64,000 bases of DNA. It comes from Caldicellulosiruptor diazotrophicus. GTDB taxonomy: Bacteria > Bacillota > Thermoanaerobacteria > Caldicellulosiruptorales > Caldicellulosiruptoraceae. Position 1 is the first letter of the stretch. Each line of letters starts with the position of its first letter. The stretch lies in contig NZ_AP024480.1 of assembly GCF_017347585.1 (NCBI RefSeq), forward strand, positions 610,001 through 674,000. The letters are read 5' to 3'. The notes under the pieces are model-generated. The model was not told the DNA's origin. It did not search any database and saw only the letters and a list, made by a program, of their open reading frames with translations. Shown here piece by piece: positions 32,053 through 40,364 of this stretch. The position numbers were made by a program, and so were the translations under genes.

Positions 32053-32435
32053 TACTATATTTGAATTTGAAATTTTAATTTAATGATATTAATGTTTCGT
32101 TATTAGCTTTACTTTGTCATAACTCTTCAAATCTGAGAAATCGACAAAAAAGTTTCACTTATATTTATTTAGTAGTATAATGTACAAAAAGGAACCATTA
32201 TCATTGGAATCCCTTGTCAACTTGTTAGCTTTGCAAAGCTCGTTAGGGATTCAAAAATTTAGGAAATATATTGAATTAATTACACAAAGACTTGAAGTTG
32301 CAGATGGTTTGGTAGATTCTTTAGAGACTCTTGTATTTGATTTGTTAAAAAAATTTAGTAAGTTTATTAGATTTATTTTACCAGTACAGTTTATTACAGA
32401 AACTTGAAAAGAATACAACAAAGAAGGTGATTTAG
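32053..32435 (+). other. Intergenic stretch before the first Uma2 gene with doubtful 75-codon ORF
   Basis: AT-rich. TATAAT at 32176-32181 may be the -10 of the Uma2 gene, leaving a leader of about 250 bases. An open frame of 75 codons starts at ATG 32180, inside that -10, without a ribosome site. Its product (IQKFRKYIELITQRLEVADG in the middle) matches nothing I recognise, so it may be a degraded gene remnant. AATGTTTCGTT near 32089 resembles the operator boxes found at 38726-38856. Confidence 0.4.
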
Positions 32436-33017
32436 ATGGAAGAAAGAATACCTAAGGTTTACACTTATGCAGACTATCTTGGGTTTCCAGAGGACGCAAG
32501 GGTAGAACTTATTGATGGTGTCATTTATGATATGAGCCCTGCACCTTCAAGGGTACACCAGAAGATTATCTTTGAATTGACTTTGATTTTTGGAAATTAT
32601 ATTAAACAAAATAAAAAACCTTGTGAACTTTACACAGCCCCGTTTGATGTTGTCCTTGTAGAGGAAGGACAGGATGAAAGCAAAGCAATAAACGTTGTCC
32701 AGCCCGACATATCAATCATATGCAATAAGAAAAAACTCACTGAAAGAGGCTGCGTTGGAGCTCCTGAGATGATAATTGAGGTTGTGTCAGAATATAATCC
32801 ATCTCACGACTATGTAAGAAAGCTAAACCTGTATAATCAGTTTAAAGTCAAAGAGTATTGGATTGTCAATCCCAACAACCAAATAATTTTGATATATAGA
32901 CTCAAAGACAATGAAGATTACTTGCCGCCAGAAGTTTACACATTCAATGATAAAGTCAAAGTTGGTATATTTGAAGACCTTATAATAGACTTTGCACAAA
33001 TCAAAGAGGTGTTATAA
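32436..33017 (+). CDS. Uma2 family (DUF820) putative endonuclease, copy 1
   Basis: A 193-residue PD-(D/E)XK-fold protein. ELIDGVIYDMSPAPSRVHQ, QPDISIIC (acidic site) and EMIIEVVSE followed by KLNLYNQFKVKEYWIVNP are Uma2 hallmarks. These nuclease-like proteins are multicopy in many cyanobacteria and thermophilic Firmicutes, and their role is unproven. AAGGTG precedes ATG 32436. It is paralogous to the gene at 39659-40240, nearly identical in the C-terminal third and more diverged at the N-terminus. Each copy is followed by the same 47-base spacer and tRNA-Arg sequence. Confidence 0.85.
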   Translation: MEERIPKVYTYADYLGFPEDARVELIDGVIYDMSPAPSRVHQKIIFELTLIFGNYIKQNKKPCELYTAPFDVVLVEEGQDESKAINVVQPDISIICNKKKLTERGCVGAPEMIIEVVSEYNPSHDYVRKLNLYNQFKVKEYWIVNPNNQIILIYRLKDNEDYLPPEVYTFNDKVKVGIFEDLIIDFAQIKEVL

Positions 33018-33064
33018 AATGCCTACCAAACATTATTCCAAACCTCAAACCCCTTGAAAACAAA

Positions 33065-33109
33065 TGGCGCGCCCAGGAGGACTCGAACCCCCAACCCTCA
33101 GATCCGTAG
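33065..33109 (-). pseudogene. Truncated tRNA-Arg (3' half), probable attachment-site repeat
   Basis: The 45 bases are identical to 40288-40332, the 3' half of tRNA-Arg(ACG): encoded CCA, 3' acceptor strand, T-arm, variable loop and anticodon arm to the anticodon. Identity stops within the anticodon loop (after GATCCGTAG on the plus strand), and the 5' half is absent. This is the classic footprint of an element integrated into a tRNA anticodon loop. Confidence 0.85.
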
Positions 33110-33241: not shown

Positions 33242-33686
33242 TTAGTTGCGGTTGTAGTCATTTATTCCTAATTTTTCTTTTAGTGCTTCTTGAAGCACTT
33301 GAGAAAAATTTATGTTATTCTTTTCTGCTAATATGTTTAACCACTGAGGGATTGTTAAAGTCTTTTTTACTGCTTTATTGTCCATCTTATGCCGAACAAG
33401 AGGCATCCATACTTCAATCAACATTGGAATTTGATTTTGTCCAAAGTTTTAAGTTGTTCACAGGTGTTGGCTCGGGTATTGATTCATTATCTTTTTCCAT
33501 ACTCCAAAGATATAGTCCTAATACTTCTTTTGCGTTTTTTACTGCTTCATCTAAGGTATCAGCACATGAAATACAACCGGGCAGGTCGGGAAATTCAATT
33601 GTTATTCCGTCATCATCAAAAGTAAAAATGGCAGGAAAGATATAAGTATCTCTATTCATTTCTTTTTCACTCCCCAATATCTTCAA
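33242..33686 (-). pseudogene. hicB: hicB antitoxin, frameshifted into two reading frames
   Basis: Two overlapping frames together match an intact HicB. 33414-33686 encodes the RNase-H-like antitoxin domain (IEFPDLPGCISCADTLDEA, ending PEPTP and a spurious tail). 33242-33424 encodes the ribbon-helix-helix DNA-binding end (KTLTIPQWLNILAEKNNINF, SQVLQEALKEKLG). The intact paralogue at 35473-35889 joins the same parts in one frame. A single frameshift near 33420-33460 explains the break. The downstream frame has ATGs but no ribosome site. It overlaps hicA by 20 bases. Confidence 0.8.
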
Positions 33687-33876
33687 TTTTAATTCCAGCT
33701 TGTTTTAAAATCCTTTTAACTGTTCTTATTGGCAAATTCTTTTTGGGATGAGGTACTGTGACTTTTCCTTTTTTGCTTGGATGTTTAAATTGATAGTGGT
33801 CTCCTTTAACCGCCTCTAAGTACCATCCATCAGCTATTAGTATTTTTATAATCTCTCGTGAAGAATAAGCTTTCAT
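33667..33876 (-). CDS. hicA: HicA toxin (mRNA interferase), copy 1
   Basis: A 69-residue HicA with a double-stranded-RNA-binding-like fold. SSREIIKILIADGWY starts it, the catalytic histidine lies in KGDHYQFKHP, and VTVPHPKKNLPIRTVKRILK closes the core. HicA toxins cleave mRNA and are inactivated by HicB. All expected residues are intact while the partner hicB downstream is frameshifted, so neutralisation may depend on the separated HicB domain or on the second HicB. A TTGACA-like box lies upstream on the minus strand (33909-33914). Confidence 0.88.
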   Translation of the reverse strand: MKAYSSREIIKILIADGWYLEAVKGDHYQFKHPSKKGKVTVPHPKKNLPIRTVKRILKQAGIKIEDIGE

Positions 33877-35267: not shown

Positions 35268-35450
35268 TTGAAACCAAAAGAATTGATAAAAATACTTAAA
35301 GAAGATGGCTGGTATGAGGTAAGGCAGAGAGGTTCACATAAGCAATTTAGACATCCTGTTAAAAAAGGATTAGTTACAATTCCATTCCACAATAAAGACC
35401 TTGACATAAAAACACTCAATAGCATTCTCAAGCAGGCAGGATTAAAATAA
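35268..35450 (+). CDS. hicA: HicA toxin (mRNA interferase), copy 2
   Basis: A 60-residue HicA. PKELIKILKEDGWYEVRQRG leads to the catalytic histidine in GSHKQFRHP, then TIPFHNKDLDIKTLNSILKQ. The start is TTG 35268 with GAGGTGG (35254-35260) at normal distance; the ATG at 35263 meets a stop at once. hicB follows with its ATG 22 bases after this stop. It is a paralogue of the minus-strand HicA at 33667-33876, and the two modules point away from each other. Confidence 0.9.
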   Translation: MKPKELIKILKEDGWYEVRQRGSHKQFRHPVKKGLVTIPFHNKDLDIKTLNSILKQAGLK

Positions 35451-35472
35451 ATTGAGCAAGGGGGAAAGAATA

Positions 35473-35889
35473 ATGAAAGATAAGTATATTTTCCCAGCTA
35501 TATTTGAACCGGCAGAAAAAGAAGGCTACGTTGTTACATTTCCAGACTTACCCGGTTGTATAACAGAAGGTAAAAATCTTGAAGAAGCTTTATACATGGC
35601 AAAAGAAGCTTTGGAGCTGCACATCTATGGTTTAGAAGAAGATGGAGAAAAAATACCTGAACCTACACCACCAGAAAAATTGAATGTTTCAAGAGGTGCT
35701 TTTGTAGTTCCAATCATTGCATATATGCCACCTGTTAGGGAAGAGATAGCTAACAAAAGCGTAAATAAAACGGTGACACTTCCAAGATGGTTAAGCAGGG
35801 CAGCTGAAGAAGCACATATTAATTTTTCGCAGGTTTTGCAACAAGCTTTGAAAGAAAAACTTGGAATAAAAGAGCGAAAAAATGCATAA
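35473..35889 (+). CDS. hicB: HicB antitoxin, copy 2 (intact)
   Basis: A 138-residue HicB. The N-terminal partial RNase H fold has VVTFPDLPGCITEGKNLEEA and binds HicA. A linker with MPPVREE leads to a C-terminal ribbon-helix-helix or Arc-like segment (VTLPRWLSRAAEEAHINFSQ, VLQQALKEKLG) for DNA binding. ATG 35473 with AGGGGGAAAG upstream is chosen over the in-frame TTG 35452. It is expected to repress the operon through the palindromes at 35218-35240. It may also act on the frameshifted module at 33242-33876. Confidence 0.88.
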   Translation: MKDKYIFPAIFEPAEKEGYVVTFPDLPGCITEGKNLEEALYMAKEALELHIYGLEEDGEKIPEPTPPEKLNVSRGAFVVPIIAYMPPVREEIANKSVNKTVTLPRWLSRAAEEAHINFSQVLQQALKEKLGIKERKNA

Positions 35890-35903: not shown

Positions 35904-36836
35904 TTACAAAGCTAACTTTTTGACCACTCTTTTTAATTGTTCTCTGTACTTGCTGCCATACTTTTGTACCATCGAAAGATGTGAAAGACAAAATACAAAG
36001 TAATCTTTAAGAAGTCTTACATTGTAGACTGTGAGATTATCCCAGTTGCGTTCAATAAACTCTTCTACTTCCCACTTGGCAGCAAGAAGCTTCATTCTGT
36101 CCTGTTCACCTTGTTGTTTTAAGACCCTCAGCTTGTCCAACTGTGGTATTGTAGACAAAACCTCAAGCTGTTTTCTTTTCTCCTCTCTATCAATAACAGT
36201 TGCCTCAACTGGTGAATAGCCAAAATTACTACCACTTGCTATGTGCACAGCTGGGCAGGATATAAACACTGTCAAGTCGTCAAGATCTGCTTCAAACTGT
36301 TCTTGTCTCATCTTGGCTATTATCTTTCTTCTTGCTTTTTTGAACACCTTATCACTGGCAGGTGGATTCTTTCCTGTGGAGATGTAATATAAAACCTTCT
36401 CTTTTTCCTCATCAGTCAAGGTATCAAAATACCTTTGCAGCTTATCAATAGTGTCTTTTCTAATCATTTCTCTTTCAACTGAATAACCATCTGAGATTAT
36501 ATCTGCAACTGTAGATGTATCTTCCTCTGGTTCTTTTGATACTGGACTGTCCAAAGAGATGGCATAAGATAACTTGTATTTTGGCAAGCTTCTTTTTATC
36601 TTGCTCTCAATCACCTTGCAAGCATAGGTAGAAAAACTGCCTTTGGCAGGGTCATAGTTCTTTGCTGCAACAACAAGACCAATATACCCTTCACTGACAA
36701 GGTCATCCACTTCATAGTAATAGCCATTTGGACATGGCATAAATTTATTTGCAACATGATACACAAGCTTTAAGTTGTCGACAATTAGAAGCTGTCTCTG
36801 GGATTCTGTAAGCTGCGGTAAAGCTGTTTGCTGCAT
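35904..36836 (-). CDS. Sigma-70 family-like factor with long C-terminal extension
   Basis: A 310-residue protein. Residues about 20-90 form sigma region 2: NLKLVYHVANKFM, then EVDDLVSEGYIGLVVAAKNY and SFSTYACKVIESKIKRSL. Residues about 135-175 resemble a reduced region 4 (LTDEEKEKVLYYIS, then KKARRKIIAKMR). The last 130 residues are a helical extension not typical of sigma factors. Its strong AAAGGAG and closeness to the IS-interrupted small gene upstream suggest an operon with the HTH gene at 38491. Phage-type late-gene activators of this kind occur in mobile elements; that role is inferred. Confidence 0.7.
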   Translation of the reverse strand: MQQTALPQLTESQRQLLIVDNLKLVYHVANKFMPCPNGYYYEVDDLVSEGYIGLVVAAKNYDPAKGSFSTYACKVIESKIKRSLPKYKLSYAISLDSPVSKEPEEDTSTVADIISDGYSVEREMIRKDTIDKLQRYFDTLTDEEKEKVLYYISTGKNPPASDKVFKKARRKIIAKMRQEQFEADLDDLTVFISCPAVHIASGSNFGYSPVEATVIDREEKRKQLEVLSTIPQLDKLRVLKQQGEQDRMKLLAAKWEVEEFIERNWDNLTVYNVRLLKDYFVFCLSHLSMVQKYGSKYREQLKRVVKKLAL

Positions 36837-37039
36837 TTGTTTATTGCCACTCCTTTTATTGCAAGCTTAGTTTAAAACAGAAGGCTCATCTGGTTCATGA
36901 AGTGCTTTGATAAGTTCTCTAATACTATCTTCAATCTGCGGTTGATTTGAGTTTTTCTCATCAAGTCCAAGAGCAAGCCTCTGTCCTTTCTGCACCCTCT
37001 CAACCACCAAAGCCAGTTTTTCAAATGAACACTCGAATA

Positions 37040-38292
37040 GGTGTAGAGATATTTACCATAGCGAAAGAATGTGCGAAAATAGTAAGGAGAAACTCATAAA
37101 AAGAATTGAGGCTGCCTCCATCCTGACATGAATATAATTAAAAAGTGTAATATACCATTCAAAAGAAAAATCAAAAAACTACCAGGATGGGAGGACAGCC
37201 TGCTATGAATATTAACCATATCACGAAATAAGAAAATATCTCCCGAAAAAGCAAGAGAATTAGTCCGGAAAGTCTTTGTGGTGAACAACAAAAACCTATC
37301 AAAAACTGCTAAAATATTAGGTGTATCAAGACAAACTGTAAGAAGGGCAATTTACGGTCCTCTTGAGGATAAATCCAGAAAACCTAAAACTTGTCCAAGA
37401 AAACTTTCCTCTGAACTTGAAAAGCCTATTTCCCAAGAGGCTAAAAGAACAGGATTCAAGAATACATACGTCTTTCACTTTATTTGTTCAGAAAATGCGG
37501 AGTTAAAATAAGTGAAAACACGATAAAGTCAATTCTCAAAAGAAATGCTATACCAAGAAAATCAAGAAAGACAAAAAAGGGTGAAAAAGAAGTTTGTACG
37601 ATTATGAAGCCCTCATTCCGTTTTCTGAATTCCAGCTTGATACAAAACATCTTTTAGATAAAGACAGTCTTCCAAAAGAAGTATATGAACACATGAAAAA
37701 ATACAATCTACCGTGTTATGAATGGAACATGATAGATGTTGCAACAAGAGCAAGATCTACAGCTTACTCCTATGAACCATCATCTACTTTTGGCTTCATG
37801 TTCATATCTTTAGTTGCATTATGGTTAAGAACTCATAATGTAAGAAATCAAATAAAAATCCGATTAGATAATGGAGCAGAATTTTGTGGAGGAAGCGAAA
37901 AAAAGTTAAAGGAGTGGAATGAGATGCTGTCATTTCTTGAAGTAGAGCTTAATCCTATTCCACCTAAGGCAAAACATCTAATGGGTATAATTGAAAACTC
38001 ACATAGTTCTGATGACGAGTATTTTTTGATGATTCATGCTGAAAGATGTAAAACAAAAGATGAATTTATGTTAAAAGCTCAAAGATGGCAGGATACATGG
38101 AATTTCTTCAAACCTCATAATGGTAAAGGAATGAATGGGAGGACACCATTTGAAAAATTCAATGATTCTAAAACTTTGGTTTTCTCCCATGTATTTCAAT
38201 TTCCTACTTTACTTCTTGAAGACTTACTAAAGAAAGTGGAAACTTTTTATTCTCTATTCTGTAACAAATTAGGTGGTAAATATGTCTTCACC
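37040..38292 (+). mobile_element. Insertion sequence with 18-bp terminal inverted repeats (decayed)
   Basis: The left end GGTGTAGAGATATTTACC (37040-37057) is matched inverted by the right end GGTAAATATGTCTTCACC (38275-38292), 16 of 18 positions. The 1253-bp element carries a broken DDE transposase. Its left end also holds a long inverted repeat (37109-37125 against 37183-37201). No target duplication is evident at these boundaries, and precise removal restores an open gene. Confidence 0.75.
37205..38292 (+). pseudogene. DDE (rve-type) transposase, multiply frameshifted
   Basis: The first readable block, 37278-37511, has the helix-turn-helix LSKTAKILGVSRQTVRRAIY. A middle block in another frame encodes KISENTIKSILKRNAIPRKS (about 37510-37570). 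The third block starts about 37594 and holds the integrase core: acidic residues in EFQLDTKHLLD, KIRLDNGAEFCGG and HLMGIIENSHS, giving D, D and E with a D-to-E gap of 42 positions. Frameshifts near 37460-37510 and 37590, and probably one at the N-terminus, make it inactive. The third frame reads through the right inverted repeat to a stop at 38433. Confidence 0.8.
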
Positions 38293-38490
38293 ACGTGCCA
38301 AATCTTTCATAGTCTATATGCTTATCTAAATCTATATTCTTGTATTGTTTTATCATTGTTTGTTCCTCCTTTTGTTACAAAGCCACCAATACTTACAACC
38401 TCTACCATTCCTATTAAGCCATTCTGCCGATGACCGCACAGAATAGCGATTACAGAGAAGAAAGGGGATAGCCAACATGGTAAGTACCTG

Positions 38491-38709
38491 CTATTTATTC
38501 TGGCAAGCCTGTTCATTGACCCATTTTATAAAAGCTTCTTTGGGTATTAGAATTCGTCGCTGCCTAGCTAAGATTTTGGGAAAGTCCTTTCTGTGTACCA
38601 AAGTAAGTATTACATTGTAGCTTATTCCCAGCATTTGGGCAGCTTCTTTAATGCTTATGGTGAACTTCTCTATCTTTTCTTTTTGTGGTTGGGGATTGTA
38701 GATTTCCAT
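38491..38709 (-). CDS. Small HTH (excisionase/MerR-like) DNA-binding protein
   Basis: A 72-residue protein with one helix-turn-helix of the HTH_17/excisionase type: ISIKEAAQMLGISYNVILTL, then a wing-like RRILIPKEAFIKWVNEQ. AAAGGAGG lies just upstream of its ATG. Such proteins act as excisionases or as Cro-like early regulators in integrated elements. A perfect consensus promoter (38773-38801 minus) drives it, with operator boxes over and around that promoter. It is the first gene of the leftward operon that includes the split 78-codon gene and the sigma-like factor. Confidence 0.8.
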   Translation of the reverse strand: MEIYNPQPQKEKIEKFTISIKEAAQMLGISYNVILTLVHRKDFPKILARQRRILIPKEAFIKWVNEQACQNK

Positions 38710-38725
38710 CAGAATTGCCTCCTTT

Positions 38726-38856
38726 ATGTTTCAATAATAATCAAAATAACGTTTCATTCTTCATCAATATTAATTATAATGTTTCATATAATTTTTGTCA
38801 ATAAAAATGTTTCATTTTTATTTGTTCAATGTTATAATGTATTAAAAAGAAACATT
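38726..38856. promoter_or_regulatory. Operator array of ATGTTTCAT boxes between divergent regulators
   Basis: Boxes: ATGTTTCAA 38726-38734, ACGTTTCAT 38749-38757, ATGTTTCAT 38779-38787, ATGTTTCAT 38807-38815, and the inverse GAAACAT at 38849-38855. One lies between the -35 and -10 of the leftward promoter, one just upstream of its -35, and one after the rightward -10 (TATAAT 38833-38838). This is the arrangement expected of a repressor-controlled switch. The binder is presumably the XRE protein. Confidence 0.75.
38773..38801 (-). promoter_or_regulatory. Consensus leftward promoter of the HTH/sigma-like operon
   Basis: On the minus strand, TTGACA (38796-38801), 17-base spacer, TATAAT (38773-38778): a perfect consensus. 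An operator box at 38779-38787 occupies the spacer. Confidence 0.85.
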
Positions 38857-38874
38857 ATGGAGGTGATTAACTTG

Positions 38875-39678
38875 ATGGAAGAAAATATTTTTGCTATGCG
38901 TTTAAAAGAGTTGCGTGAAAAAGCAAATTTAACTCAAAACGAATTAGCAGAAAAGCTTGGTATAGGAAGAGCTACTTTAAGTAATTATGAACTTGGCGTG
39001 AGAAAGCCAGATATTGATACTTTGCAAAAAATAGCTATGTATTTTGATGTTTCAAGCGATTATCTTCTTGGAATTTCCTCAATAAAGAAAAGAGATTTTT
39101 TAAATTCATTGGGGAAAATTACAAAAGAGGAAAACATTAAAGAACTGAAAGACTTTTTTAAGAATAAGGAAAACGTAAAAGCTTATTTTGAATATATAGT
39201 TTCATTGTTTGAACCTCTATTAAAAGTAATTTCTATTTATGAAGACGAAAAAATTTTAGTTGATAAATATGATGAAATAAAGAAAAACTTTTTAGATCTT
39301 TTTATGCCAATTTTGGATATGTTAGAGGCTTTATTAATAATTTCTTATAAAAAGAGTTATCCTTTTATACTAAACACAAATGTATTTGATGATGCGCTTT
39401 TGTTTTTAAAAGATAAAAAATCAAAATTTTTCATTTTTGATATACCAACATTGATTAACGAAACACACGAAATAGTAAAGATGTTTGTAGAACAGTTGAG
39501 TGGTAAGTCAAAAGCAATTTCAGATAATAGTTATGCACTATACAATTTTTTCTATGAAAATATTACAGATTTACAAGAAAAACTATTAATGACTGTAGGA
39601 GTACTTTGGCAAATTTCCCAAAATAAAGATTTAAAATCTATTAAAGAAGGTGAATCCAATGGAAGCCAGAATACCTAA
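38875..39678 (+). CDS. XRE family transcriptional regulator (Cro/CI-type repressor)
   Basis: A 267-residue protein. The N-terminal 60 residues form a canonical Cro/CI helix-turn-helix (LKELREKANLTQNELAEKLG, IGRATLSNYELGVRKPDIDT, SSDYLLG). The remaining 200 residues are helical and unrecognised, with no LexA-type peptidase motif. GGAGGTG (38859-38865) sits nine bases before ATG 38875. It is divergent from the small HTH gene across repeated ATGTTTCAT boxes, so it is probably the element's repressor. Its 3' end overlaps the Uma2 gene by 20 bases, which couples their expression. Confidence 0.87.
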   Translation: MEENIFAMRLKELREKANLTQNELAEKLGIGRATLSNYELGVRKPDIDTLQKIAMYFDVSSDYLLGISSIKKRDFLNSLGKITKEENIKELKDFFKNKENVKAYFEYIVSLFEPLLKVISIYEDEKILVDKYDEIKKNFLDLFMPILDMLEALLIISYKKSYPFILNTNVFDDALLFLKDKKSKFFIFDIPTLINETHEIVKMFVEQLSGKSKAISDNSYALYNFFYENITDLQEKLLMTVGVLWQISQNKDLKSIKEGESNGSQNT

Positions 39679-40240
39679 AATATACACGTATGCAGACTAT
39701 CTTCAGCTGCCACAAGACGCAAGGGTAGAGCTCATTGATGGCGTTATTTATGATATGAGCCCTGCACCTTCAAGAACACATCAGAAAATAGTGGTGGAGT
39801 TGACAACAGTAATAAATAACTATCTTAAAGCAAGTAAAAAGTTTTGCGAAATATATACAGCCCCATTTGATGTAGTCCTAATAGAGGAAGGGCAGGATGA
39901 AAAGCAAGCAACAAACGTTGTTCAGCCTGATATTTCAATTATTTGCGACAAGAGAAAGCTTACTGATAAAGGCTGTGTTGGAGTTCCTGAGATGATAATT
40001 GAGGTTGTATCTGAGAGCAATTTTTCGCATGACTATATCCGAAAACTCAATCTTTATACACAATTTAGGGTCAAAGAATACTGGATTGTCAACCCTAAGA
40101 ATCAAACAATCTTGGTATATAGACTTAAAGACAATGAAGATTATCTGCCACCAGAAGCTTACACATTCAATGATAAAGTCAAAGTTGGTATCTTTGAAGA
40201 CCTTATAATAGACTTTGCTCAAATAAAAGAGGTGTTATAA
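39659..40240 (+). CDS. Uma2 family (DUF820) putative endonuclease, copy 2
   Basis: A 193-residue PD-(D/E)XK-like protein with ELIDGVIYDMSPAPSRTHQ, QPDISIICDKRK, EMIIEVVSES and FRVKEYWIVNPKNQ. It is a paralogue of the gene at 32436-33017. The last 45 residues are almost identical, while residues 40-75 differ at many positions. It overlaps the XRE gene, and GAAGGTG before ATG 39659 serves as ribosome site. Its position beside the tRNA attachment site, where an integrase would usually be, is notable. Nuclease activity is inferred from family only. Confidence 0.85.
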   Translation: MEARIPKIYTYADYLQLPQDARVELIDGVIYDMSPAPSRTHQKIVVELTTVINNYLKASKKFCEIYTAPFDVVLIEEGQDEKQATNVVQPDISIICDKRKLTDKGCVGVPEMIIEVVSESNFSHDYIRKLNLYTQFRVKEYWIVNPKNQTILVYRLKDNEDYLPPEAYTFNDKVKVGIFEDLIIDFAQIKEVL

Positions 40241-40287: not shown

Positions 40288-40364
40288 TGGCGCGCCCAGG
40301 AGGACTCGAACCCCCAACCCTCAGATCCGTAGTCTGATGCTCTATCCAATTGAGCTATGGGCGC
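40288..40364 (-). tRNA. tRNA-Arg (anticodon ACG)
   Basis: A 77-nt cloverleaf. Acceptor GCGCCCA pairs with TGGGCGC, then G and encoded CCA. The anticodon stem TCAGA/TCTGA holds loop CTACGGA with anticodon ACG, read through inosine for CGN codons. Its 3' half is repeated at 33065-33109, so it is the intact copy at an integration site. Confidence 0.97.

Follow-up and report, generated by a model that had tools for sequence, protein, structure and literature searches.

A divergent XRE–xis control region with repeated operator-like boxes in the relic of a PICI-like island, and exchange of the boxes with the XRE DNA-binding domain among its Caldicellulosiruptor relatives

In lambdoid phages, the repressor and its operators are swapped together as immunity modules, and in the conjugative element ICEBs1 the ImmA gene is linked to that of the repressor. 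The satellite islands known as PICIs are characterized by a divergent regulatory pair, an integrase gene on the repressor side that is transcribed with the repressor, an xis gene followed by a primase/replication module, an iteron origin, an optional terS, the lack of phage structural or lytic genes, a size of about 12–15 kb, and attachment sites never used by prophages; a helper phage induces and packages them (PMC6092414). The Stl repressor of SaPI1 has several operators, comprising 6-bp inverted repeats around a 3-bp spacer, which lie over both promoters (PMC9638917), and SaPIbov1 Stl is a modular repressor in which the DNA-binding and partner-binding domains are separate (PMC6695447).

The window analysed here, a stretch of 64,000 nucleotides from Caldicellulosiruptor diazotrophicus (contig NZ_AP024480.1, positions 610,001 to 674,000), holds a locus that can be compared with these systems. 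Its control region comprises the following features.

38491–38709, minus strand: excisionase-like HTH_17 protein, 72 aa (PF12728, E 3e-11; TIGR01764 above cut-off)
38726–38734, plus strand: predicted operator box 1, ATGTTTCAa, directly adjoining the HTH gene's ribosome site
38749–38757, plus strand: predicted operator box 2, AcGTTTCAT
38773–38801, minus strand: leftward promoter TTGACA-17-TATAAT (-35 at 38801–38796, -10 at 38778–38773), 12/12 consensus, facing the HTH/xis gene
38779–38787, plus strand: predicted operator box 3, ATGTTTCAT, within the spacer of the leftward promoter
38807–38815, no strand assigned: predicted operator box 4, ATGTTTCAT, at the centre of a perfect 21-bp palindrome (38801–38821)
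38830–38838, plus strand: probable extended -10 of the XRE promoter, TGtTATAAT, as read from the sequence; its -35 is weak
38847–38855, minus strand (inverted): predicted operator box 5, AaGAAACAT on the plus strand, shortly before the ribosome site of XRE
38875–39678, plus strand: probable XRE repressor, 267 aa (or from TTG at 38872), with an N-terminal HTH_3 domain (PF01381, E 4e-20) and an all-helical C-terminal part

The XRE gene and the small HTH gene diverge with the boxes between them, and the leftward promoter is perfect and carries the box at 38779 in its spacer, both as the earlier note had described. Its count of five repeated boxes stands at up to one mismatch, but not their exactness: two of the five are identical to ATGTTTCAT and the other three deviate at one position. 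The counterpart of box 2 in the near-identical locus of a related genome (G005) is an exact ATGTTTCAT. The palindrome around box 4 reads ATAAAAATG-TTT-CATTTTTAT, is perfect over all 21 bp, and shares one base with the -35 of the leftward promoter; it likely spans the -35 region of the XRE promoter as well, the position of which we infer. With a probability of roughly 0.8, we read the locus, from sequence comparison, as the master control region of a PICI-like satellite island in which XRE would repress through the ATGTTTCAT boxes.

The closest solved relative of the XRE HTH domain is the Xre regulator ImmR of ICEBs1 (7t8i, E 8e-15), and residues 10–137 match SaPIbov1 Stl (listed as Orf20, E 2.5e-4). 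Structure prediction gave a mean pLDDT of 56 and was confident in the HTH domain alone. A search for DNA similarity to a phage collection gave no match. In IMG/VR, the HTH protein found no relative, and XRE found two distant contigs with the match confined to the HTH domain; a GTDB contig scan with XRE yielded one distant match. In 37 genomes of the class, the HTH protein turned up nowhere outside the family.

Around the control region, two 45-bp copies of a tRNA end, at 33065 and 40288, frame a 7.2-kb element with these further parts (coordinates in the genome of the window, G000, are converted by subtracting 610000).

33065–33109, minus strand: left attachment repeat, 45 bp, identical to the right one
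35904–36836, minus strand: sigma-like gene with sigma-70 region 2 only (PF04542, phrog_351), an island component
36897–37028, minus strand: fragment of a TerS-like gene (match at G000:C1:646897-647028)
37278–38433, plus strand: pieces of an IS481-like transposase, occupying the place of the primase-helicase of complete islands
39656–40240, plus strand: Uma2-family gene overlapping the end of XRE (PF05685; candidate defence gene, PADLOC PDC-S03, E 2e-58)
40288–40332, minus strand: right attachment repeat, the 3' end of the tRNA-Arg(ACG) gene at 40288–40364

This copy has decayed: only the first codons of the integrase are left, the primase-helicase is missing, and TerS is a fragment. It is the relic of a PICI-like island. 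The Uma2 gene overlaps the XRE end in relatives too, where it is split by a transposon-like insertion in G005 and separated by an insertion in G011. Two HicAB pairs lie in the window copy (33414–33876 and 35268–35889). To its left, positions 32207–33109 hold a tandem remnant of a second island, with a Uma2 gene, an XRE C-terminal trace (27% to G001, E 0.004), and the same integrase deletion junction and 45-bp tRNA repeat as in the main copy.

The locus is present in nine of the 13 genomes of the family, with an HTH/xis protein that is 85–94% identical. Four islands are intact or nearly so (G007, 13.0 kb; G004, 14.0 kb; G002, 12.1 kb; G001, 10.1 kb); intact islands are bounded by 45–54-bp repeats of a tRNA end, which belongs, where a tRNA gene was detected, to tRNA-Arg(ACG), tRNA-Thr(CGT) or tRNA-Arg(TCT). 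The genes run in the order Int-Uma2-XRE and, divergently, xis followed by primase/DUF927/Cch helicase (or a DnaB-like protein), small genes, TerS-like, sigma-like and toxin-antitoxin genes. XRE, Uma2 and Int are co-directional and opposite to xis in all four. After xis come a primase zinc ribbon, DUF927 and a Cch HTH protein in G002, G004 and G007, the place of which is taken by a DnaB-like protein in G001 and G009; the TerS-like gene of G001 is a trace only. Iterons adjoin the primase gene in two groups around an AT-rich stretch, with the units AGGTGTTACA in G007, AGTGGTTACA in G004 and GGTAACCAGTA in G002. Since these differ between islands, replication specificity seems to diversify too; the origin-like stretches are L054:10046-10526, L057:10211-10681 and L052:2942-3362. 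No structural, lysis, TerL, portal or capsid genes were recognised among the main ORFs of the 10.1–14.0 kb islands. In all features tested, i.e., gene order, lack of structural genes, size, iterons and terS, the intact relatives agree with the description of PICIs (PMC6092414).

The TerS-like protein of the islands (phrog_1206, E 1e-8) shares 44% identity with a G010 protein whose gene immediately precedes those for TerL, portal, minor head, scaffold and major head. From this identity, the G010 prophage is a possible candidate for the helper type. The prophage (L106, G010:C1:906000-925500) contains divergent XRE genes, a sigma factor, TerS, TerL, portal and capsid genes. Across the 13 genomes, TerL was found in two, G010 and G005, by families PF04466 and PF03237, and nothing was found by PF03354, so that most of the genomes gave no TerL with the three families tried. 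The sigma-like gene, with sigma-70 region 2 only, lies beside TerS in several island kinds and in an 8.3-kb contig (G002:C2), and has a full-length relative in the G010 prophage (L106:10232-11053, phrog_351, 29% identical over 80 aa); putatively, it could affect phage late transcription. On that contig (L096, 8291 bases), which is probably a plasmid, the TerS-like/sigma-like pair occurs with a primase/helicase-like protein, as if an island or its packaging module existed as a plasmid.

The left ends of the G001, G003, G004 and G007 islands carry a HigB-like toxin and a HigA-type antitoxin, a pair that is absent from the window copy; the antitoxin has an ImmA-type HELGH metallopeptidase motif and is a possible alternative inducer of XRE. 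This motif, the ImmR-like HTH domain and the shared divergent xis arrangement would also suit the control region of an ICEBs1-type (ImmR-xis) integrative conjugative or mobilizable element, moved by conjugation and not in phage particles. We consider that unlikely, as no relaxase or conjugation gene is present among the ORFs of the 10–14 kb islands examined and the islands carry a TerS homologous to that of a prophage, whereas a match of the HTH domain says little about the route of transfer. Still less probable is the remnant of an ordinary prophage immunity region, which the loss of the integrase and replication gene from the window copy might suggest: it is largely refuted by the complete relatives, with their defined ends 10–14 kb apart, ORFs that include no TerL, portal, capsid or lysis genes, and a layout that recurs at three different tRNA genes. 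The earlier note's reading of XRE as a repressor with repeated operators at a divergent promoter is supported for this mobile element, which is better termed a PICI-like satellite island than a phage.

Among the nine loci, the segment between the xis start and roughly codon 65 of XRE falls into four unrelated types, each with its own repeated word. For types B, C and D, motif-blind 9-mers were too coarse and 6- and 7-mers were used. The type A word ATGTTTC occurs in G000, G005 and G002 (0/1000 shuffles), and the type C word TGTTGC five times in G004 (0/1000 shuffles). Types B and D are statistically weaker: TAGTTT, the word of type B (G001, G007, G009 and G011), is present six times in two of the four members (P 0.010 and 0.001) and is weak in G001 and G009 (P 0.72 and 0.28), and GTTGAT of type D (G003) has P 0.014. 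The words are mutually exclusive, each being absent from all loci of the other types. A leftward TTGACA-16/17-TATAAT promoter is nonetheless present in every locus (perfect in eight, with one mismatch in G011), and its spacer holds the word of the type or a close variant in 9/9. In types A, B and C, the boxes occupy similar positions relative to the XRE start, about 30 bp apart. In G003 (L058), the DNA separating the leftward promoter from xis contains an extra small XRE-like frame, interrupted by an internal stop, at the position of str in SaPIs.

In all nine loci, the word tracks the HTH domain of XRE rather than its C-terminal domain. G011 and G003 are 98% identical in the C-terminal part and 66% in the HTH domain, and their words differ; G004 and G001 (74% and 61%, respectively) differ likewise; conversely, G009 and G011 are 98% identical in the HTH domain and 34% in the C-terminal part, and have the same word. 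The recognition helices differ by type (GRATLSNY, STQTIANY, KRQSISNY and SVQNLSYY) on an otherwise conserved scaffold. DNA identity drops at the xis start and returns within the XRE gene, and the two flanks of this segment, xis to the one side and the C-terminal part of XRE with Uma2 to the other, vary independently. Operators and N-terminal HTH domain make up a single specificity cassette that can be exchanged, and the C-terminal domain is exchanged separately. As neighbours, operators and HTH domain would be carried along together by linkage alone, and only about three exchange events are visible, so that joint travel by itself is not proof; the stronger argument is that each type has new repeated words at the same promoter positions. 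Since the word follows the N-terminal and never the C-terminal domain, and each type has a copy in the promoter spacer, the boxes are very likely operators of XRE, and XRE their repressor.

A CI/Cro-type bistable switch, as the earlier note had seen here, would have XRE and the HTH protein compete for the five boxes and set two alternative states. Divergent genes, several boxes and overlapping promoters are what such a switch has, and a real prophage in G010 does carry divergent XRE genes near its repressor. The divergent protein, however, belongs to the excisionase/HTH_17 families (TIGR01764, PF12728), not to HTH_3, and it stays 85–94% identical while the boxes change completely, which makes it an unlikely reader of the boxes and not a competing Cro. 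Where Cro acts as a second repressor on the same operators, this protein, probably an excisionase, is conserved across four operator types; we therefore give the CI/Cro reading very little weight.

When the 162-bp intergenic region is shuffled 2000 times with its dinucleotides preserved, the count of boxes at up to one mismatch averages 0.32 and never exceeds 3, against five in the real sequence; the runner-up 165-bp stretch anywhere else in the window contains two. In the motif-blind test, ATGTTTC was the top over-represented 7-mer, equalled in none of 1000 shuffles. The earlier note had asked for a genome-wide search and had named an equal frequency of the word in random intergenic DNA as an outcome that would count against it. 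In the 2.6-Mb genome the exact word is not common, with 36 copies vs 67 for the reversed control word, and two copies 12–30 bp apart occur only at the XRE/HTH locus, which answers this objection. Within type A, 5/45 positions vary in the boxes and 21/100 in the remaining intergenic DNA, a difference in conservation that is not significant (P = 0.17). Elsewhere in the G002 island, type A boxes are found only in scattered positions, so no wider regulon is claimed. Chance repetition in highly AT-rich DNA, favoured by the 21% G+C of the intergenic region, is next to negligible as an explanation, given that dinucleotide-preserving shuffles never reached five boxes, that the motif-blind test speaks against it, and that the boxes are found in three genomes.

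Returning to the satellite-island reading, the Stl/ImmR-like XRE would bind the ATGTTTCAT boxes, most likely as one dimer per box, and cover the consensus leftward promoter, keeping the xis-replication-packaging operon silent. Autoregulation is suggested by the box over XRE's own promoter and by another close to the XRE start. Intact islands would be derepressed by an inducer, probably a protein of a helper phage that targets the variable C-terminal part, and could then excise and replicate.

The island family preserves an unusually clear record of exchange between operators and DNA-binding domains. Our literature search found no paper describing such islands in Caldicellulosiruptor. Tentatively, they may represent an undescribed PICI-like lineage with two independent exchanges, of the operator-HTH cassette, which would bear on cross-repression, and of the C-terminal domain, which would bear on the inducing phage protein, and with a TerS/sigma-like pair that would hijack phage packaging and late transcription. 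Nine islands, with four words and several C-terminal types recombined, amount to a natural experiment that separates the determinants of DNA specificity from the probable determinants of inducer specificity in satellite repressors. If they are real satellites, PICI-type parasitism, described in cocci and Gram-negatives, would extend to thermophilic cellulose-degrading anaerobes, and the islands would be a source of orthogonal repressor-operator pairs from thermophiles.

Compared with lambdoid CI/Cro control, the locus likewise has a probable repressor with an N-terminal DNA-binding domain and a C-terminal domain, several operators over divergent promoters, and a record of joint exchange of repressor and operator sequences. 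It differs in having no Cro, in a divergent excisionase-like protein whose sequence is independent of operator type, and in an XRE C-terminal domain that matched no LexA-type self-cleaving family. With the ImmR-xis region of ICEBs1, it shares the divergent XRE and xis genes and the HTH domain most similar to 7t8i; unlike that conjugative element, it has no conjugation genes here and no ImmA gene directly beside the repressor. From SaPIs, it departs in its operator sequences, in the HTH_17 xis-like protein that faces the repressor where SaPIs have str, in the Uma2 gene between repressor and integrase, in the sigma-like gene adjoining TerS, and in its thermophilic anaerobic host. Yet it is the stl-str region of SaPIs and Gram-positive PICIs that the locus resembles in its overall plan: a repressor divergent from the xis side, the integrase gene downstream of the repressor, a primase-replication module and iteron origin on the other side, short operators over both promoters, and, as in SaPI1, 6-bp inverted repeats around a 3-bp spacer in the geometry of box 4 (PMC9638917).
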